Source: Lobosporangium transversale (lineage: Eukaryota; Mortierellomycota; Mortierellomycetes; Mortierellales; Mortierellaceae). From it: a stretch of DNA of 64,000 nt. Shown piece by piece: positions 13,381 to 25,714 of the stretch; positions within the stretch are counted from its first letter, which is position 1, and every line of letters begins with the position of its first letter. Position numbers and translations under genes: made by a program. The notes below the pieces were generated by a model that was given only the letters and a program-made list of their open reading frames with translations, ran no database searches and had not been told where the DNA came from. The stretch covers positions 186,001 through 250,000 of the forward strand of contig NW_019028996.1 in the NCBI RefSeq assembly GCF_002105155.1, in the 5' to 3' direction.

Positions 13381-13812
13381 ACTGGTGATGAATCAGTATA
13401 AAAGTGAAGGATCTTTTTCTCAACTCCAGGGATAATGTATAATGCGGCTCTCTAGTGCTAAGATGAGACATATAACACCTAGAAAATACTATAAAAAATG
13501 TTAATAAAACATATTTGTGAGTATTTAGAAAAATATTGCGATGACTGAGCGATACTTGATGTTCAGAGGTGAGGTCTACCACAAATGTATATCCAAAGTT
13601 TGTTAAGGATGTTTGAAACAAAGTTTACTCCAAAGGCAAATTCCAAATTTCGATTGGGGTTGAGTGAATGTTGTTGCCTATCACATACGATAAGTTGTTT
13701 ACAGACTGCAATTTTTACGTCGGCGAAAATAAGGTTCAATATCCCGATGAAAATCCTTGACGAAAAAAATATTTGCGAAACTCTCTAGACTATTGCATAG
13801 TCGAACTTGCAA
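13381..13812 (-). pseudogene. 3' part of decayed Crinkler-like P-loop NTPase gene, split by transposon
   Basis: On the minus strand this is the continuation of the NTPase relic at 19766-20385. Removing the transposon and one TA joins the two flanks in one frame, which stays open for 37 further codons before a stop at 13701-13699. After that the resemblance continues in shifted frames (TQPQSKFGICLWSK, then FGYTFVVD, a Walker-B-like hydrophobic stretch plus Asp), so the host gene was already decaying or has decayed since. The assignment to the fungal Crinkler-like NTPase group rests on the Walker A half. Confidence 0.55.
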
Positions 13813-13814
13813 TA
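13813..13814. other. TA target-site duplication, left copy
   Basis: TA immediately precedes the first base of the left terminal repeat and is matched by TA at 19766-19767. This is as expected for the Tc1/mariner/pogo superfamily. Confidence 0.8.
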
Positions 13815-13963
13815 TCCAGACATCCCACTGTCAAACTTGTCCGGATAATAATTAGGTTTTACTAAATTGGGTGGTATTCTAAACTTTATAAAATATATAT
13901 ATATACTCAGGTGATATTGCATTTACGGGTTCCCCGAAATGCACATCTGGTGAAATGTCCGAC
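13815..13963 (+). repeat. Left terminal inverted repeat
   Basis: Begins TCCAGACATCCCACTG and pairs with 19621-19765 read on the other strand, including TCAAACTTGTCCGGATAAT, TTTATAAAATATATA and GCATTTACGGGTTCCCC. Motif TGTCCGGA or its complement occurs at its edge (one mismatch), at 13838-13845, and again just inside the repeat at 13984-13991. Confidence 0.9.
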
Positions 13964-14200
13964 AAGATTTGTCTGACGAAATATCCGGACAATTCTACGC
14001 CTCCACTGCGCCTCTTTGCCCAGCCCCACTACGCCCCATGACTTCCACACGGCGTCCCCGAATAGTATAAAAGCCATCATTATTGTAGCAGATTAGGGCA
14101 GACTTGAACAATAAATCATTTTTGAACCCACCACCGCTTGCTACTATTCACAACATATCACCTGTTCCCTTACATTAAACAATCGCATCCAAGCATCAAA

Positions 14201-16074
14201 ATGGCAACTGGAAAACGCTCCACAGAGTCGGCTCTTGCTTATGAAGTGACCAAGAAGACCAAATATACAAAGTCTGAAATAAAAACGATTGAACGCAAGC
14301 GGAAGGAGAGGTACTTGGCTTCTAGATTGTGCAAGGAATTGCGATATGTATGCTCCCCTTATCCTTCCTTCAGTTGACAACCACGCCATCCCAATGGCGA
14401 AGGTGTGTTTGACTCTAGAACAAAAAATCGAGCTCCTTGATATATACGAATATCTTTTGCTTCGACAAAAAGATACTTTAGAAGCTTCGGTGACCTGGTT
14501 GGATATATGCTTCCGAAGGCTACTTTTTACGACATGTAAAGAAAGAGAAATGTGATTCGACAACAGGCTCCGTTGTATCCAAAGGGCGCATGTTATATGA
14601 CTCAGCGAAAGAATTTTCAGCTTGAGGCGGTGCTCTTAAAATGGCTGCCTGGAAGATCAGCAGAAGCGAAACAATCCAGTCAACTAAAGGATGATAAAAC
14701 AAGCGGCTAAAACCACCTATATTGTCCTCACCGACCAGAAAAATCCTTTTGACTCGGACTCCAACGACATGATGCCGTCTTTTTCAGCTTCCTGGTTCGA
14801 TGCTTTCAAAAAGCGTCATAACATAACGTATTGCCAGCTCCACGGAGAAGTAGCATCGGTTGACCTTAAGGCGATTGAGCCTGAACTAGTCGAGATTCGG
14901 CGGCTATGTTCCCAAGCCTGACAACATATACAACTGCGATGAGACAGGATTTTATTTCAAGGAGCTGGAGCACAAGTCTTATACAACGCAGGTCTCGAAA
15001 GCCGGTATCAAGGCAAATAGGAGCTGCCGTGTTTCCATTCTATTTTGTATCAACGCTTCGGGCACATCGCTCCTCAAGGCAGAATCCATGAGTGCATTGA
15101 AGACACTAGTCATTGGTAAGGAGAAGCAACTACTGAAAACCTTGGTAAATATTAAATATTAGACATTAACTTGATGTGATATATTTTATATACTAGGCAA
15201 AAATATCGCCCAGGGCATTGACGAAGAGTCGGCAAGTAAGATGGTTGTGAGGAAGTCTGAATCGGGGTGGATGACAAACCATATCTTTGTGAAATGGTTG
15301 AAAGAACTCGATGACCAGCTCACGGAGCCAAGCCTACTTCTCCTAGACTCAGCTCCACAACACAAAAACATTGATATGCGCGACCCTTTTATCAATTAAT
15401 CCTGGAAGCATCTCCGCGTCCGACGACTCCTGGTGAACCCAACATCTGTTACGCAGCCCCTTGACGCAGGTGTTATTAGTGTGTTCAAGCGAGCATTCCT
15501 TGAGATGCTTATCCGTGAGTCGCATCTCATCCGAACGTTTGACATGGCGAAGGCTATTTTTAATGGACACGCGTGGTCGATTATCCCATATGCATGGAAT
15601 TCCGTTAAAGCGACAACACTAAGGAATTGCTTTGCTGAAACGCCGGTCCTTCCTGAAGAGATGCGGCCGCCCTTCAAAACCATGTCGACTACCAATGCAG
15701 AGCGGAACCATGAGCTCCGGTACATGCGACGTCACCTTTATGAGAGGCAAGAAAGGACGTACTTCGAGCACTTGGTTGCCTCAGTGAATGAGGCAAACGG
15801 CTGGAACCTCAACCGCATTGCGGAGAAAGATGTGCAGGATGTTTTGGAGGATAAAAATGGGCCATGCCCTTCTATAGAGGATTGTAACTTTCCTGATCTT
15901 TCCGATGGAGTCCAAGAACCCATTCCACCCCCTGTGAGCAGCATGCATAGTTCACCTCTATCGAAGGAGTCACTTCATACTTCGGTTGAGCTACTGGCCA
16001 AGTTGTCTGGTGGGCATGATATGCGCACTCCGGAGGGAATGGAGGCCATGCTGGATAATGCAAAAAAAAAGTAA
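14201..16074 (+). pseudogene. CENP-B/pogo-type (DDE_1) transposase, decayed
   Basis: Starts ATGGCAACTGG with a Lys-rich leader. Successive pieces in different frames show a psq-type helix-turn-helix (LTLEQKIELLDIYEYL), a CENP-B second helix-turn-helix (QLEAVLLKWL, WFDAFKKRHNI) and the DDE_1 catalytic core. Core motifs are NCDETGFY (Asp at 14938-14940), LLLLDSAPQH (Asp 15346-15348) and QPLDAGVISVFK (Asp 15463-15465). An intron GTAAGG...CTAG at 15116-15196 keeps frame within the core. Breaks: several frameshifts between 14360 and 14930, and an in-frame TAA at 15397-15399 just before the third Asp. The C-terminal 213 codons (to 16074) are intact. The protein is therefore not expected to be made from this copy. 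Confidence 0.85.
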
Positions 16075-16292
16075 CATGAGTAGTGTGCGCCATTTTTTTG
16101 AAAAAGCTTGTAAGAGCTTGTGAAGACGAGAATAGGGAACAGGTATCTCCACAAAAAGATATGCAGGATGGCTCCCAACGAGACGAAGAATTCCAGAATC
16201 CTTTTAATTAAAATATAATTATTCATATTTCATTGCGATCGTTCATTGATTTTGGTTGCAGTATCTCCTTTTTTTCGCTCGCGAATGTAGAC

Positions 16293-16478
16293 CTAGCTCT
16301 GAACCACGCTATCGCCTCGCCCTGCCAATCCAACTTTGGCTGGGTGAATGACCTGTAGGTCCTGGCGGCTCTCAAACTCCGTCAGCGCCCGTTTCAAGTG
16401 GTGCCAGACGAGGACAATGGAGACCACGTCGGCGGCCAGTTGTGTTTCGAAAAAAGCTGTCACGTAACATTGGTTCAT
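16293..16478 (-). other. Open frame fragment in the transposon spacer, unassigned
   Basis: A 61-codon minus-strand frame with protein-like composition (FFETQLAADVVSIVLVWHHL, then RALTEFESRQD) lies antisense to both element genes. No family recognised. It could be a residue of another insertion. Expression is not supported. Confidence 0.25.
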
Positions 16479-16593
16479 TAATCTTGTCCAATCAACTTCA
16501 GGTGTATTAACTGTTTAACATTAAGTAGCATTGAACTTCTTCAACTGTACTCAGCGGTTACAAATAATACATCGTAAGGTCCGTAATTGATTT

Positions 16594-16649
16594 ATTCATT
16601 TAGAATTATTCATTTAGAATTATTCATTTAGAATTATTCATTTAGAATT
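16594..16649. repeat. Four tandem copies of a 14-bp unit
   Basis: ATTCATTTAGAATT repeated four times without mismatch, in the spacer between the two genes of the transposon. Confidence 0.9.
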
Positions 16650-16679
16650 ATTAAGTGGGCTGTAGATTTCATGAGCACA

Positions 16680-16720
16680 TTCTTAGCGAACCTTTGCTTA
16701 GTACGCGGCGAGGCGGCGGA
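16680..16720. repeat. 41-bp direct repeat, copy 1
   Basis: Starts TTCTTAGCGAACC and ends GCGAGGCGGCGGA. An identical copy is at 16782-16822. The GC-rich end contrasts with the AT-rich surroundings. Confidence 0.9.
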
Positions 16721-16781
16721 TTGTGAGATGCATTCACAGTTAATTAGACGTTATAACATTAGCTTCAGGATACTGAATCTT

Positions 16782-16822
16782 TCTTAGCGAACCTTTGCTT
16801 AGTACGCGGCGAGGCGGCGGAA
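16782..16822. repeat. 41-bp direct repeat, copy 2
   Basis: Identical to 16680-16720. GTTATAACAT occurs close to both copies (near 16750 and 16844), so the pair may mark ends of a nested element or a regulatory duplication. Confidence 0.9.
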
Positions 16823-16958
16823 AGACGAGTTGGATCGAACAATGTTATAACATCACATCCACTTAATGATTCTTTGATTTCTTTTGTTTTTGTGTAAATT
16901 GAAATTTCATTACTTATATTGAATCGTTCACGAGAATCATGAGCGTATAGAATCACAA

Positions 16959-19196
16959 ATGCGAAGCGTATCATCAGCTCCACAGGAAAAACTACCTCCT
17001 CTTCATCCTGCCGACTCAGTTGAACCATGTGTGAATGACCCGTTGAGTTGGGCACAAAAGAAAGCTAAAAGGGGTGAAGATATAGAAATGTCGAAATTCG
17101 CCGAAGAGCTTGGGTTCCATTGTGAGGAAGATGCACATCCGCTATTTATGCAAGTTTTACAATCAACAACTGTACCGTATATCATAAGACGACGTTCGCT
17201 TAATCAGTACAAAGTGTGGAAGGCATCTAAAGGTGGTGAATTTTGGGCAGACCGAAGAATTCGCTATCAAGTCCGAATGTCCACGAAGTCGGCTGTAAGC
17301 GAGATAATCGAAGGAAGTGGGGCTGTTAGAGAACATTATATCAGCGTCAATAATTCAACTTTGATTCCACTTTTATCAAACAATTCGAGGTGGGTCCGAA
17401 ACGAGGTAAGAGTTACTATTATTTATACTTATATTTGATATTGTTTGTTATTGTTTGTTGCTCTCATTCAATATTTGCATGGCCGACGACTGATAGTGCT
17501 ATTTTCGTCTGCTCGCACTCCATTATTTGACTGAGGCTCGGGCTTATCATCACCAACACTGTCGCCTCCGCGCCGTCCGCTCTTTAATATCAACAACGAT
17601 GAAGGAGCTGTCACAGGAACTTTCGACAATCACGAACAGCTGTCTAGCGGAGACAAAGGTGATGAGGGTGAGGTATTTGGACGACCTTACAGTGGAACTG
17701 TAGATATGTCCTGGATTAATGAGCGGCCAGAATTCACATTCCGTTTCCCGCTGACAAAAGACTGGGGACCTCGGATAACTGAGTCCTACAACAAGATCAA
17801 GCAGAAGACATCTTTGAACTTCAAGCAAATAGATCAGATTGCGTAAGTAAGTTTGACTCCATACAAATGAGACTCACGTTCAAGCGAAATTACACAAACT
17901 AATCGACGTGATGAAATGTATCAATCTAGGCTGCTCTCTGGTGTCCTGCATTTTGACAAAGAGCATGTTGGATTCAAGACTGCTGAGATCTCAGCTATCA
18001 CAAAGGAAGTTCTCCGTCGGTTTTATACCAGCGAGCTGCAAGAGAAAGACGTAAAGCGGTCGGTAGAAGCAGCTGCACTATGGAGCGCTTGGGTCCAGGT
18101 TCGCGGATATGGCTATGGTTGTTGTTGACATTATGTTTTTTTGACTGCTTGTTTGTTTTGAGCAATGCATAATGGGCACCAATCACCTTTTTTTTTTTTT
18201 TTTTTTTTTTTTTTGGTTGTTGACTGCAGAATTTGGGATCAATGAATCTCTTGAGCTACCTATCCAAGGACCTTGAAACCGCCGAGGAACCCGAGATCGA
18301 TCTTAGGTCGGTCGTTGACATGATAATGGGATCCTATTACACATGCCAAGAAAAAGACATATTACCTGTTTTGTTTGTGGCTCTGTATGTGTTTCGACAC
18401 TACAATACATGGTGCGAGATTGAAAGTGAAAGTGATATTATGTCGTCCGTCATCGTGCCGATTTTACGTGAATTTATGAATATACCAGGCCATATCCAAT
18501 TCAAATGGCAATATCATCCTGATTGTTTAGCCGTTTGCATATAGGAAGATGGGATGTTCTTTTGGTTTAATTGTCGTTATTCCTTTTAGCAGTCTTAACA
18601 GTGCATCGACTGCGGGCGAGAACAGAAAAGCTGCTTTGGCTCAGGATGGGCAAGCCAGGCAACCCGACATTGTGGGTCGAACAGAGGGAAAACGTGAGGT
18701 ATATTATGGAGAAATCAAGGGTATCCACCCCACAACACAGTCAAAGAATGCGGATACCCTCCGCATTGCCATTTTTACAAAAGACAGCCTCGATGATCTA
18801 CTCCCCGGTCTTGAAGAAGATCTGCCACTCATAAGCTTCCAGTCTGTCGGCCCTGAGATAGTGTTTTTCCTTGGTGCAATGATTGGCAATACTGTCATCC
18901 ATGCAAGGATCTCTGAGCTTACAATGCCAACCTGTTCATCCGAACTTAAATCAATGGATCAAATCTTTTTCTTCCAATTGTTTCAGATTCAATCATTGGT
19001 CCGGATTACTAGCAAGTGCCTAAAGGGAAAGCGACAGGGGCATGTAAAAGACAACAGTCCATTTCCAACACTGAGCATGCCTCATCGAAATATGAAGCTG
19101 GGAATTCAGTCCAAATTGAAGGTGGTCAAGCGCGGGGGCAAAGATGTCATGGAGGTGAAGGAACTCAAGCGCAAAAGGAGAACAGCGGAGGCGTAA
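16959..19196 (+). CDS. Transposon-borne protein with PD-(D/E)XK-like nuclease motif
   Basis: Exons with clear borders are 16959-17405 (ATG start), a second ending 17842, 17930-18098 and 18230 to ~18530; the last runs ~18590-19196. The start of exon 2 (~17560) and the join near 18530-18590 are unresolved and may be damaged. The last exon holds QPDIVGR (Asp at 18666-18668), then YYGEIKG (Glu 18711-18713, Lys 18717-18719), followed by KNADTLRIAIFTKDSLDDLL. This D...ExK layout with a downstream DxxR-x5-KD helix resembles restriction-like nuclease domains common in uncharacterised Mucoromycota proteins (family resemblance, not a search). Upstream exons (residues ~1-400) are not recognised. The C-terminus is very basic (KLKVVKRGGKD, KELKRKRRTAEA), fitting DNA binding or nuclear targeting. 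The gene runs the same way as the transposase and ends 424 bp before the right repeat. Confidence 0.6.
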
Positions 19197-19620
19197 ATGA
19201 TATGAAGGAGGAGGAGGACTCAGTATAACTCAATGCTCTCTACACTGTTCTATTGTCGTACGCTAAGAACTAATCCCAGTTATTCCGAACTAGTGCTTGA
19301 AGGTCGTCATCATAATGGATCTGCTCTTTCAGATAGTTTTCTGTTTTTAAGTATACTTTCTTTAACACCAAAAAAAAAAAAAAAAAAAAAAATTGTGAAG
19401 CGACATGATAAGAGAAAACTATCCAAATGCAATAAACAAAATCGTCTCAATATGTTTAGCAGATGTGAGTGAGAAAATGCAATAGGCAACGATAGAGCCA
19501 AGGGAAGGCAAGACCAAGAAACAAGGGAGGGAAAGCCGAGCCCGAAAAAAAAGGTCTTGGAAGCCTATTCCACAATATCGAACGTGTTTCGTTCCTTTTG
19601 TAACTGAAAGGAACGCAATC

Positions 19621-19765
19621 GTCGGACATCTCGCCAGATGTGCATTTAGGGGAACCCGTAAATGCAGTATCATCTGAGTATATATATTTTATAAAGTTTA
19701 GAATATCACCCAATTCAGTAAAACCTAATTATTATCCGGACAAGTTTGACAGTGGGATGTCCGGA
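19621..19765 (-). repeat. Right terminal inverted repeat
   Basis: Reverse complement of the left repeat, ending exactly in TGTCCGGA at 19758-19765 with another copy at 19735-19742. It lacks four bases of the left copy's TATATA run. Confidence 0.9.
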
Positions 19766-19767
19766 TA
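19766..19767. other. TA target-site duplication, right copy
   Basis: TA directly follows the last base of the right terminal repeat; partner of 13813-13814. Confidence 0.8.
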
Positions 19768-20385
19768 TCATAGCAATATTAGTGTTTACCGATAGGTCAA
19801 CACCAGCCCCAAGATTGACAGAAGTAATCAAAGACCAGACATCATCTGATCCGCGGTCATCTCGACCAGCATTGAAATAAAATCACCAGTTTTGCGAGAG
19901 CATGTCCATAACTGTTCGAGTCTTTCCACAGCCAGATGCTCCTAAAGTGAGCAAAAGCTGAGACTATGCGACAAAATATGTACAAGGATCTCTTTTGCCT
20001 TGTTATTAGAGTCGCAGCTCATATAAGAGCCATCCAAACCAGGAGGATCAAAGAATAGGAGTGATGGTCTATGTGTCGCCTCTCTTTTTTCTGACTGAAA
20101 TCGACGCCAAGCATCTGGGAAGCCTGACATTGCGCCGTCTGTTACTGGTAATTTAACGGTGCCATAAATATAAGCCTTGATAAATCAGACCAATCCTTGG
20201 AATAAAATTCCTTCTCAATGCTGCTAAACCGTTTATTGGCTATGAGTATTTGAAATACACAAGTTAGTAAAAATGGTAAATTGATGAGTATCAAATATAA
20301 AACATAAAGGCATTTTTGCTTACGTTCTTCAAGGGGTATACGAAAACCAAACTGCGGTTAACCGCCTATGAACGCAAGACACAGA
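19766..20385 (-). pseudogene. 5' part of decayed Crinkler-like P-loop NTPase gene
   Basis: Read on the minus strand, an upstream exon fragment (~20385-20325, donor GTAAGC) is followed by a stretch with GFPDAWRRFQSEK and a Walker A loop LGASGCGKTRTV (near 19935-19905). The frame changes just before the P-loop, and an in-frame TGA follows it ~12 codons later. This order (aromatic-rich linker, GxSGCGKT, then FYFNA...D) is seen in the NTPase part of fungal Crinkler-like proteins (inference from memory of the family). The coding frame runs straight into the transposon boundary and resumes at 13812. Confidence 0.6.
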
Positions 20386-21264
20386 ACATTTGGTGAGATT
20401 ATAAATAAGCGTGGATATCCCAGACATCAAGGACCTTTTCCTCCTAATCTTTCATCCGTCTGGCATGAATTGATGTGAGAGGGGATGATTCTGGCGAGAT
20501 TGATGCCCTCAACAGCATGTAGCATTAATATACCGAGAACTATTAATATACTGACGACACAATCCATGTTGTATCACATTTTACCGGTCAATCGCGTGGC
20601 AGCCTTGGCCACATTCTTGATGTTTTTTTATTCCATGTCCCTGGACGCCTAGAGATTCAAGACGCGCCGCCTTCACATACTGACACTGAATTGGCCGAAC
20701 ATACAACTAATATGATCTCATTGGTCACAGGTTGCCATCCCGTGCACGCACCATGGGGCTAAAACGACATTTATGTCTTTAGAGCGGAGCTGTCATCCTA
20801 GCTCCTGGTTAAACGTTCTGGCGCCTTGGATGATGATAATTGATGGGTCTTCCGCAAGTGGCAAGCATCCAGATGACAAAGCATACGAGAAAGGACAATT
20901 TCCTATGCCAGCTGTCCTGGTGATAATAATATGGTTTTGGGTCTCATCATCAGACTCTCACTGGGTTCTCCACAGGATTCTTCATCTCTATCCATTTTTA
21001 CAAAACTCTTTGATAATAGTATCACAAAAATCTGCCCTTTCTTGCACACAAGATCGCATGATGATCACAGGAAGCTTTATAAAGTTCTAAATGCCCCAGT
21101 AGAAGGGAGGACGGATTAAACCGCTCTATCTATTCGTCTAAAAGGTAAGTGGATAATGATGGCTTCATTCATAAAGAATGAACCATTGTAAAAAATTCTC
21201 AAGGAACGGGTATAATGCTTTTTTTAAAAAAGACAAAATTTCATCCACTTGATTGGTATTCGAT
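20386..21264. other. Intergenic between two Crinkler-like relics
   Basis: No gene recognised. A 105-codon plus-strand frame (20773-21090) has no motif. The stretch separates fragments of what appear to be two different Crinkler-like genes. Confidence 0.4.
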
Positions 21265-21925
21265 TTAATTCTTCAGATTCGTACCGGCTGCTCCTCCTGA
21301 ATATGCAGCTTCGATGTCGATTTTTATGACACGCTGTCTTACATGTTTTAAGCATACATATGGATTCTTGACGACCGTATCTTTGGTGGTAAGAAAGTTC
21401 TGAACTTTAAAATTATCATATACGTCTCCTGGCACCACAAAATAGATGAAAATGGTATCGTCACTTCCATTCGGCTTTGATTGCTCTCCAGTAATATAAT
21501 CAATTATCTCCTTGAATGGTGCTTGCTTGATCGGATGTTTCTCTGCTACTGTGACCTGAAATAGCTTGTTGGGTCCGGATAAACACCTCTTCTGGATTTG
21601 CTGGAAAATCAAGAAATCCTGTTTCGCCTGACTGGAGATCCTTAAAGGGAAATCTAATATCACCACGTCGAAATAAGTAATGAGCATAGACTTCAAATAC
21701 CGGGCCTTTAGCTATATCCTCTCCGCCTTTGACAAGGTTCGCCAACACATCGACCCAAGTGTTATCTTTTAATTTCTCCATAATCTGTGATTCGACCCAA
21801 CGAGATGCCCACACCAGGTAGAAGTCGAGATGGTCAGAAGTGGGGACTCTATGGAGTAAACGACCACTAAATGCACTCGCATCTTTTCCTCGTGCAAAGA
21901 GGCTTACAAGATCTGCTGGCTGCTA
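21265..21925 (-). pseudogene. C-terminal fragment of a second Crinkler-like protein
   Basis: Minus-strand pieces in two frames read ASAFSGRLLHRV, FYLVWASRWVESQIMEKL, KGPVFEVYAHYLFRRGD, then after a frameshift near 21590 HPIKQAPFKEIIDYI and IFIYFVVPGDVYDNFKVQNF. The order (Gly-Arg-Leu-Leu-His, GPxFExxxH, then FVVPxxxYDxF near the C-terminus) matches the downstream half of fungal Crinkler-like proteins as I know them. A stop upstream of ~21925 and the frameshift make it a relic. Its N-terminal half is not visible. Confidence 0.5.
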
Positions 21926-24900
21926 CAGAGAGTGGCTTTGGCCCCAATATGGCTCCCTGGGTGGAAATAAAGAGGTATCTTATTTGTAAATGAAAAGAGA
22001 AAATAAAGGGTAGTGCTCTCTTCATTGCAAATGTCGACACCAAAAAATTTTTGCTCAAAAAAATTTGACCTCTACTTTGAGTACGGTATACCATTCACAC
22101 AATGTCAACAATATACGATGCGAGAGTATATACATATTATGGGCCTGAACTCTAAGCGTACTTTACCACTCTACACCTTCTTCTATTACATTCCTTGCTT
22201 TCACACACTTTACCTTCACATATCTTTCACTCTTCATTTGAAAAGAAAAAAAAAAGATATGTTCCATACATTCATCTGTCAGACCTTCGCCACCTGCCAA
22301 ATGGGTCATCAAAGCATGGCAAGTCCGATGAGACGGAGGTTTGAAGAGAGCTTACAAGGAGGAGAACAGGTGAAGGAATATGACTGGGCTTATAGGCCAA
22401 TCGGCTCTGCCCTGCTTGCATTGCTTGAATAGGAGATGGAAAAAGGGGAAGAAAGGAAAAATGAGGTAGAAAGGTTTAAGACTGCAGCCGAACTTCGATG
22501 TAGTGCTTGCTTGACGTAGGTTGCTCTTGCAGCAAGGATGTGTTTGTCCTATTCTAAGGATAGCCAAGCTCAAGTCCTTGGTCTAACGGCACTCACTCCA
22601 CCGAGTTGATCTCCAGCAGCCGTCCCGCATACCTCCACATGAACAACTGTTCGCTCTCTTTCAATCCCACAATCTCCCTCACAAAAAGAGGACAAGGGAC
22701 CTACGTACCATACTGATGCATTGTCTATAATAGAGGTAGCTAAATAGCCAAGTAATGATCATAAAAGAGTACCTCCTACACTACAAAAGTAATGCTAGAA
22801 AGCCTATCTAAAACTATGGGAATGATAATTTACATTACGTAGTTCTTCTGCGAGGAACAATCTAGTGTAACAGTTAAATTCTAGCATTTTCGCTTGCATA
22901 CCCGCCAATGCTAAAATGCTTAACTTTATTTTTGTTATTGCATTAGGTGAGGAGAATATCGGTGTATTTCCGAAGGGACTACATCTATATAATTCACGTT
23001 TATCCACTGTTCTCTACTTTTGCCACTATTACATTTATTTTTATTTTATTTTATTTTATTTTATTTTTGGATTTTATTATCTATATTAGTTAAAGATCCC
23101 TCTCAATGCTACGCCTCATGGCATGTAGCCTGTGCAGCAGCGACAGACATGGCAAGAGACTATGCCCTCAGAATGTAAGGAATGTGGTAAGGCCTTCTTA
23201 TCTTTTTGTTTTTATGTTTTTGGAATATATAAACATTAATAATATTTTCCCAACTGATAAAGACAGAACGATTTTTCCCAATCGCCTCGCTCCCCCTTCC
23301 ATTCCACGTCTGTATGTGGGTGCAGTTGTCCAGGCCATGTGCGCAGTTCATACCCAAATAATGAAGAATGAGTGATTTCGGTATTTAACAATCGTAGAAA
23401 ACTTTTTTTTTTTTTTTTATTTTATTTTATTTTTTTTTTGGCATGGTAGTGGTTGGTGCATGCTGAGCTTAAGCTTATATACCTTCTATAACTTGAATAA
23501 CGCTGCCAGCAACGATGTGCAGAATGTTGGGTCAATTCGAAGGCAAAGGTTCCTATTTTATATTCATTAGATTTTGTCATTCTTTTTTTAACCCTCCATC
23601 ATTATTACTTACCTGCAGGGCGAGCACCGTCAACCAGCTCCTACAGTGTATAAATGCAGTATCTGCAGTTGCCTAGGAGTAGATGTAGACCATGCTCAAG
23701 TAATAAAGGGTGGAGTTTGATTTTCAACGGTTTGATTTTTTCTTCTCAGCAATAGACTATTAATCCTTAGTTTTTTCCTGTTTACTGCTTGCTTTAATAG
23801 CGTTGTTAGTAACTCAGTGCAAAATGGCGCTAGGCCTGTGTGCACACGAAGTATTGTTTTGAAGATGGTGGAGATGAAAATGAAAGACCCGTGCAAAGAC
23901 AAGGGTGTGCTACTTTTTGTTCGGTTTTTTATTGGCTTATTATACTGTATTATACATTGCGTGTACTTAATCTTACACAATTACCATTTACCATTTACCA
24001 TTGACCTTCAGAATACACGAGCGTAAAGGTGATCCTTCTGTTGAGGATGCTCCTTCTACCGAAGATAATTCCTTTGCCGAAGACAACTTTCTACCACCCG
24101 CTAGAAAAAGGTTTCAGCAAGATTTCGTTTCGGGTTCCAATATTATGCAATATAGGTACCGGTCAGTTGCCATTATTGCGGTGCCTTCATGTTTATTGAA
24201 GAATGTGTGTGCAACGCAGTAGTAAAAGCCGGCCAGAATTTCCTTTATGCTGTGGGAGAGGTCAAGTGGATATTCCTCCACTTAGCCTTGGTTTAACTTC
24301 TTGATGGGCAGAGCCGCAAGGTAAGTTATTCCGTTAACACATATAAGCATATAACTGCGCTCTTTCGTTCACGTCCATGGAAGTGAACCTTGATAAAGAC
24401 CTTGCGAACAACCTATATGGAGTGTACACGCTTTGTATCATTGGAAGGGTTGGTACTCTGATTGATCCTATGAATCCAACTGAAGGCGCTGCCTCTCTGT
24501 TCCTGCAGGCTCACGCTCACATTCATGACCCTGCTCAGCAAGCAAGACTCCGTAATAACCATTTCGGGGATTCCTTGATGAAGGCCTGTTGCAGTAACCA
24601 CAGCAGCTCCTTGAACTACACTACCCGATAGCCCATACGCTCAAAGACGTCAGAGAATGTGCGCACGAGGATATCATGCGGCTGAAGGTCGCCATCTGTG
24701 CTGGGCCTCAGCATGAGGGGAGAGGGCAAAGGCGAATGCAGTACAGGCCCTCTCATCAACTGGAATCGTGCTATTGATGGCTGGCGCCAGTAGTAAGGTT
24801 TCTCAGCAAGGCATCATAATTGAAAGCGGAGCCAGTGGTTTGGAAAAAACCAGTGAGGTTCATCCAGCTCACGAGAGTCTCCATAATAACCTCTTGCATC

Positions 24901-25714
24901 CAAAAGGCGAGGACTGGACATATAAAAAATATAAAAAATGGCCTAGGCCAGGTCAAACCTCTGCAGGGCCTCATGGTGACAGCTATGACGGTAGCGAAAA
25001 CGGCCAGCTAGAGGTGGATGTAGGTGAGGGCGATGGCCGAGCTAGGAAAAGTCGAGAATACGCCAAGCTGGAGGAGTTTTACACGTACAGGCTGCAGATT
25101 CGTCCTTTGAGCTCAACAGACCAGCGATTTTTCATCAGGATGGATACATGCTTGACTTATTAGTACGCTACCGATCAATACAGTAGGCTTGAGGTGGATC
25201 AGCTTCAATTCATCAGCGAGAACTAATCTAAGCTGAAGACGGATCCATATATCGGTGTTGTGGGTGCAATTGAACTTAATCTCAGACCTGGGCTATACAT
25301 GCGGGACATTGTCTACAAGGATGCTTTGTAAATAAGCATCCTCTCATTTACTACCGTATCTTCCAAATATTCTGCCTTATTTTGTGTTTTATTTTTTGTT
25401 TATTTTACTACTGTACGTACATAGCACTCCTAACTGATCTTCTTTTTGCAACGGAAATAATGGAAATCTTTTGCCAAGTTCTCCCTTTTGTTATTGTTAT
25501 TATTCTTTATAGGAAAACTAGATGAAGACTCAGTCGTTTTTACAAGACCAAGGGCTGGTGTTATAATTGTGAATGAGAGAAAACTACCACGGTATTAAAA
25601 CATGACGTGGAGCATACAATCCTCTCTAGGTTTGTTTCTGATCCCTGTATCTACAAGGGAAAATGTGTATAGAAAATAAACTTCTATAGTTGAGAGCGTG
25701 GGGGGGAAGACGCG

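Follow-up and report, generated by a model that had tools for sequence, protein, structure and literature searches.

A decayed pogo-type transposon of Lobosporangium transversale carrying a predicted PD-(D/E)XK nuclease gene between its terminal repeats

Organization of the element

The window, i.e. the whole stretch of 64,000 nucleotides analysed here, is contig C38:186001-250000 of the 42.7-Mb genome of the fungus Lobosporangium transversale. It contains a pogo-type DNA transposon in which a transposase gene and a second gene (gene 2), encoding a predicted nuclease, lie in the same orientation within inverted repeats. This arrangement had been proposed in a sequence-only reading of the same DNA, and it was borne out here, as was the description of the second gene as multi-exon with a basic C-terminus. 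The features of the element, in window positions, are as follows.

13798-13963, forward strand: left terminal inverted repeat of the pogo-type element (flank CA in the window, TA in the C39 and C82 copies)
14201-16074, forward strand: broken pogo transposase gene (HTH_Tnp_Tc5 within 14688-14921, DDE_1 at about 15028-15633)
16589-16821, no strand: spacer between the transposase gene and gene 2 (14-bp tandem repeat at 16589-16658; two identical 41-bp copies at 16680-16720 and 16781-16821)
16959-17405, forward strand: gene 2 exon 1, N-terminal header domain (architecture as in M. alpina P0007; the window copy has a frameshift close to the exon end)
17536-17842, forward strand: gene 2 exon 2
17930-18098, forward strand: gene 2 exon 3
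18230-18507, forward strand: gene 2 exon 4 (the following donor is not GT in the window copy)
18593-19196, forward strand: gene 2 exon 5, main part of the predicted PD-(D/E)XK nuclease domain and basic tail
18666-18719, forward strand: catalytic motif PD...GEIK in the exon-5 frame (Asp 18666, Glu 18711, Lys 18717)
19621-19768, reverse strand: right terminal inverted repeat (outer 14 bases gone)

The window element is bounded by inverted repeats (90 nt at 97% and 67 nt at 93%). Since other copies start, after a TA, with CAGTCGAACT(T/C)G..., its true left end is at 13798; the boundaries first suggested, 13815-19765 with TA flanks, are refuted, the TA in question sitting inside the repeat. The surviving extent is 13798-19768, and with CA rather than TA at the left flank and the right repeat truncated after 19768, no TA target duplication is seen in the window copy.

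The first gene encodes a DDE_1 transposase, as had been claimed. Both PF03184 (DDE_1) and PF03221 (HTH_Tnp_Tc5) score above cut-off in the window transposase pieces and in a related element on C51 (see below). The catalytic Asp codons of the window copy are at 14938, 15346 and 15463, and 38 residues separate the last two (DD38D), in C51 and the window alike. The combination of a DDE_1 catalytic domain and a helix-turn-helix DNA-binding domain, with terminal inverted repeats and TA duplications in the C62 and C51 elements, places these transposons in the pogo superfamily. The earlier label "pogo/Tigger" therefore stands for pogo; strictly it fails for Tigger, as neither C51 nor the window shows the DD29-36D spacing of that group.

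The window copy is indeed decayed: its transposase runs through several frames with stops, one of which interrupts the catalytic exon. Gene 2 is damaged by a frameshift and a non-GT donor. In the catalytic exon, C39 and C82 carry the same three stops, and frameshifts and stops break the transposase in all three copies. In C62 the transposase frame stays readable across the binding and catalytic parts, the only stops there coinciding with what looks like an intron of C51, and is broken close to the C-terminus.

Copies and independent insertions

Whole-genome DNA searches found the repeats, transposase and gene 2 together at four places: the window, C39 (98% identity to the window copy), C82 (97-99%) and C62 (86-91%). 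The first three have common flanks on both sides (117 bp left, 914-1,721 bp right) and so represent one insertion multiplied by duplication; this rules out counting them as three insertions. The flanks in question are:

13679-13795, no strand: left flank common to the C39 and C82 copies, marking duplication rather than separate transposition
19769-21489, no strand: right flank common to C39 (1,721 bp) and, over its first 914 bp, to C82

The C62 element (5,822 bp) has 158-bp repeats that are 100% identical, with TA on both sides and the end TA followed by CAGTCGAACTCGTAATATCCGG, and shows no similarity to the window outside the element. The two-gene unit has thus inserted independently twice, once for the window lineage and once at C62, each time with both genes within common ends. 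Because C62 arose independently and holds both genes, the unit moved as a whole. The sequence-only reading had envisaged that other copies might lack the second gene; this was not so for the copies found here, as all four hold gene 2.

To the right of the window element lie two multi-copy repeats (20266-21919 and 21917-25445), mostly 88-99% alike and present at many genome sites.

Gene 2 and its family

The five-exon model of gene 2 is backed by relatives and by the other element copies. Sequence search gave 14 related proteins and profile search 69; five of the latter are nameless and the others bear genus names that we take to be Mortierellales. Gene 2 is a member of this Mortierellales family (P0001-P0011, P0014 and P0026-P0085), whose other members carry no function name. 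Its nuclease exon is 67% identical to M. antarctica P0003, and M. alpina P0007 has the same full architecture.

Within the family the N-terminal parts fall into several types, and the window exon 1 matches that of P0007. Headers of the P0007 type occur at eight genome places, and of the P0003 type at six, with no nuclease match nearby. P0012 and P0013 share the N-terminal header of a gene-2 relative on C41 and have a different C-terminus. The C41 gene itself matches an L. transversale protein at 100%, the match covering 55% of the query. The Crinkler N-terminal domain PF20147 gave no match in gene 2 exon 1, nor in any family member that was scanned.

The C-terminal domain of gene 2 is predicted to have a PD-(D/E)XK fold, as had been suggested from its D...ExK motif. 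The Asp, Glu and Lys codons were placed exactly when counted from the exon-5 frame, and 46 of 51 aligned relatives retain all three residues. In the model of P0007, D445, E460 and K462 sit at strands 446-450 and 455-462, so that the D...(D/E)xK motif lies on adjacent strands as expected for this fold. The same motif strands appear in a domain model built on P0077 (predicted local distance difference test score of the block, 84-91), in which about 38 N-terminal residues look like read-through, making the first helix and strand doubtful. AlphaFold topology and Protein Data Bank (PDB) neighbours agree with the assignment, the structure matches being modest. Sequence searches of the family core against Pfam, NCBIfam, PADLOC and PDB returned nothing above threshold; an LRR_6 match occurred in P0002 only and falls within an extension at its C-terminus.

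Nuclease genes in other pogo lineages

The pairing of transposase and nuclease gains further weight from two more pogo lineages that carry a different nuclease gene. The C51 element (4,342 bp, 1312089-1316430) is complete and TA-flanked, with repeats of about 150 bp and the end TA followed by CACCAAAATTTTGTTTATCCGG. Its transposase is an unbroken frame of 661 amino acids. The cargo is a Crinkler gene, convergent to the transposase, with 137 bp between the ends of the two genes and the Crinkler header beginning at most 0.2 kb from the other repeat. The header matches PF20147 (1.1e-15) and the C-terminus the PD_DExK model (3.5e-7), giving the Crinkler N-terminal domain joined to a restriction endonuclease (REase) domain; header and body are in one frame, the stop between them marking an intron or a break.

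In the second lineage, repeats of about 200 bp enclose a transposase and a Crinkler-type nuclease match, as judged mostly from match positions:

C73:404161-411507: pogo element with Crinkler-type nuclease match
C13:274997-280049: second copy of this subfamily

The C73 end is TA followed by CACTCCTGTCTCACTC, and a further Crinkler-type nuclease match lies at C73:405567-406565. Comparison over 3,065 bases shows the two elements to be 99.4% identical. Homology of C13 ends at a TA beyond the right repeat, so the right flanks of C13 and C73 differ.

Ends of the C51 type also make up short palindromic elements, about 330 bp long and present at five sites, and C73-type ends are likewise found in close inverted pairs. 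The palindromic elements are at:

C108:16576-16907
C35:700449-700780
C1:873343-873686
C2:16466-16808
C35:17344-17674

On C33, a Crinkler-type match adjoins a transposase. In Gamsiella, the N-terminus of a pogo transposase and a nuclease part, the latter 34% like its C51 counterpart, are combined in a single protein, P0020. This hints at the same arrangement of neighbouring genes in a second genus, or at two genes fused by gene prediction.

The association of the two kinds of gene was compared with uniform placement, using 27 of 43 Crinkler matches (the 16 weakest being dropped) and 43 of 44 DDE_1 matches (one fragment being merged). Four of the 27 Crinkler loci lie within 3 kb of a DDE_1 match, against 0.16 expected; two of these four are copies of one element.

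Pogo elements without these nucleases

Among the eight best DDE_1 loci, five show a repeat pair in the stretches examined, enclosing 2.1-2.7 kb, and none of the eight has a match to the nuclease queries. Together with C113, C52 and C65, these five make eight pogo elements of 2.1-2.8 kb without a match to these nucleases, the only ones searched for. Five nuclease-carrying elements are known (the window lineage, C62, C51, C73 and C13); as these were partly found through their cargo, eight against five is no frequency.

Discussion

We favour, with somewhat better than even confidence, the interpretation that a decayed pogo transposon captured a Mortierellales nuclease gene and moved with it as a unit, the nuclease being conflict-type cargo. 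The capture and joint movement of the two genes are seen directly in the copies. The presence of nuclease genes in several lineages is read as recurrent capture by pogo elements. As to its role, the cargo probably belongs to conflict rather than to the transposition machinery, and among all possible roles a conflict function has about an even chance.

Under this interpretation, a pogo element of L. transversale would have taken up a Mortierellales nuclease gene between its repeats. The cargo protein would be a DNA-cutting enzyme of modular build, in which an exchangeable N-terminal header precedes a PD-(D/E)XK domain. The pogo transposase would suffice for movement, as pogo elements lacking this cargo exist. 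The nuclease might then attack rival or foreign DNA, or help the element to persist in some other way, much as has been proposed for proteins of the Crinkler/RHS type.

Several observations weigh against a function of the cargo and would fit a mere passenger, that is, a host gene transduplicated by chance into a pogo element, where it hitch-hikes and decays without function. Between the window and C62 copies of gene 2, synonymous divergence (dS) is 0.115 and nonsynonymous divergence (dN) 0.108, a ratio of 0.94 (95% interval 0.69-1.37), so that selection on the element-borne cargo is not evident. Gene 2 is broken in three of the four element copies (window, C39 and C62), while in C82 it is open over 601 codons but has one acceptor that is not AG. 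Moreover, seven of the 11 nuclease-domain loci, chosen from 52 genome matches with the weak fragments C37:622141 and C1:895907 excluded, are outside verified elements, and six of these seven (the other being on C124) have no DDE_1 match within 5 kb. The sequence-only reading had allowed that the second gene might be found mostly outside such elements, and in part this is so: verified repeats enclose four of the 11 loci, all of them copies of this element, and gene 2 is therefore a captured member of a wider family. Constraint, too, appears in the comparison with an outside gene, the ratio to the C41 gene (exons 2-5) being 0.28, with one stop codon in the compared pieces. The ratios to C39 and C82 (0.51 and 0.48) rest on just 14 and 8 changes and are uninformative; those of the transposase are 0.70 to C62 and 0.26 to C51. 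Together the ratios indicate that the family is constrained, and that the element-borne branch is relaxed, fast-evolving or was open only until recently.

Two findings nevertheless count against the passenger explanation and leave it the less likely of the two. The frame of gene 2 has remained free of stops over 567 codons at about 11% divergence between the window and C62, against 5.8 stops expected neutrally (P 0.0035). In addition, a second nuclease type is present within two further pogo lineages, which repeated chance capture would not favour; it is for this reason that conflict-type cargo is preferred to a mere passenger.

The surroundings of the outside relatives were also considered. 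On C124, a gene-2 relative (L078:6388-6936, with PD...GEAS replacing GExK) lies 5 kb from a pogo-type transposase on the same strand; the stretch examined there yielded no repeat pair, and a C73-type end is located outside it, at about C124:23671-23815. No repeat pair was found in the stretch examined on C36 either. Repeats around a gene-2 relative on C40 were dropped as an element, being 74% alike, with several overlapping repeats and unclear TA ends. On C41 and C8, a Sailor-like (DD82E) transposase follows a gene-2 relative on the same strand. Gene 2 as a regular Sailor component was dropped, as a presumed Sailor-end repeat separates the two genes; the link is weakened further by the nine remaining gene-2 loci, none of which has such a transposase match within 10 kb. 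An open reading frame (ORF) upstream of the C41 gene, at C41:423045-423911, is presumably TnpB/Fanzor-like.

That the protein keeps the restriction-enzyme fold for a non-catalytic, nucleic-acid-binding role is improbable, since binding would not need the retention of D, E and K in the 46 of 51 aligned members given above. Least likely of all, because elements without this cargo have repeat pairs of their own, is an accessory function of the nuclease in excision, target cutting or repair, such as the second gene of ISL2EU elements might have: although ISL2EU elements with a YqaJ exonuclease gene make such a combination workable, what extra genes of this sort do is given as unknown in the part of PMC4482050 available, the eight pogo elements without a match to these nucleases are from the same genome, two of them (C113 and C52) end in the same TA followed by CAGTCGAA, and the two cargo nucleases are unrelated and differ in orientation. 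The role in targeting breaks or repair put forward in the sequence-only reading is thus unsupported and very improbable.

If the interpretation as conflict-type cargo is right, a widespread fungal DNA-transposon superfamily would serve as a vehicle for effector- or conflict-type nuclease genes, the C51 element with its unbroken transposase frame included. It would also provide a concrete route by which Crinkler-like genes are multiplied and shuffled in fungi, and a testable soil-fungus system. More tentatively, and with clearly less than even confidence, the pogo elements of Mortierellales may be a weapon-carrying lineage that repeatedly takes up and spreads PD-(D/E)XK genes with swappable headers. 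Were this true, Crinkler-like nucleases would pass through a selfish stage, travelling with transposons, and only later turn into effectors of the host; the idea of "transposons to toxins" would then become directly testable.

Comparison with known systems

The elements described here resemble the pogo superfamily (Tigger, Lemi, pogoR and Fot) in DDE_1 and HTH_Tnp_Tc5 domains, inverted repeats and, in C62 and C51, TA duplication. In the available part of the pogo survey (PMC7386202), elements are 1.2-5.2 kb long with one or two ORFs encoding transposases, in contrast to the extra nuclease gene and the 5.8-6.0 kb found here. By the same source, Tigger spacing is DD29-36D, and DD38D falls within the Lemi and pogoR ranges.

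Two-gene DDE elements with a nuclease are represented by ISL2EU of the PHIS superfamily, with its YqaJ exonuclease gene. These differ from the L. transversale pogo elements in both transposase superfamily and nuclease family, and a second ORF is reported, in the part of PMC4482050 available, for most autonomous ISL2EU candidates, whereas only some pogo elements here have one.

Crinkler/CR (Crinkler-RHS-type) proteins are like gene 2 in joining a variable header to a C-terminus of the REase superfamily, and the variety of gene-2 headers is reminiscent of the modular build, header plus effector, that the available part of PMC5289972 describes for CR proteins. Gene 2 differs in lacking a Crinkler header, as it gave no Pfam match; such a header was demonstrated for the C51 cargo only. 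Links between Crinklers and mobile DNA have been proposed before (Zhang et al. 2016, as told in PMC5289972), those in the part available involving Helitrons, a gypsy insertion and RHS retrotransposon hot spots, with pogo not among them. No description of a Crinkler or REase gene inside a pogo element was recognised in the literature searched, most subscription journals being outside it. This suggests that, while two-gene DDE transposons with a nuclease domain (ISL2EU) and links between Crinklers and mobile DNA are already known, a pogo element with such cargo is apparently new.

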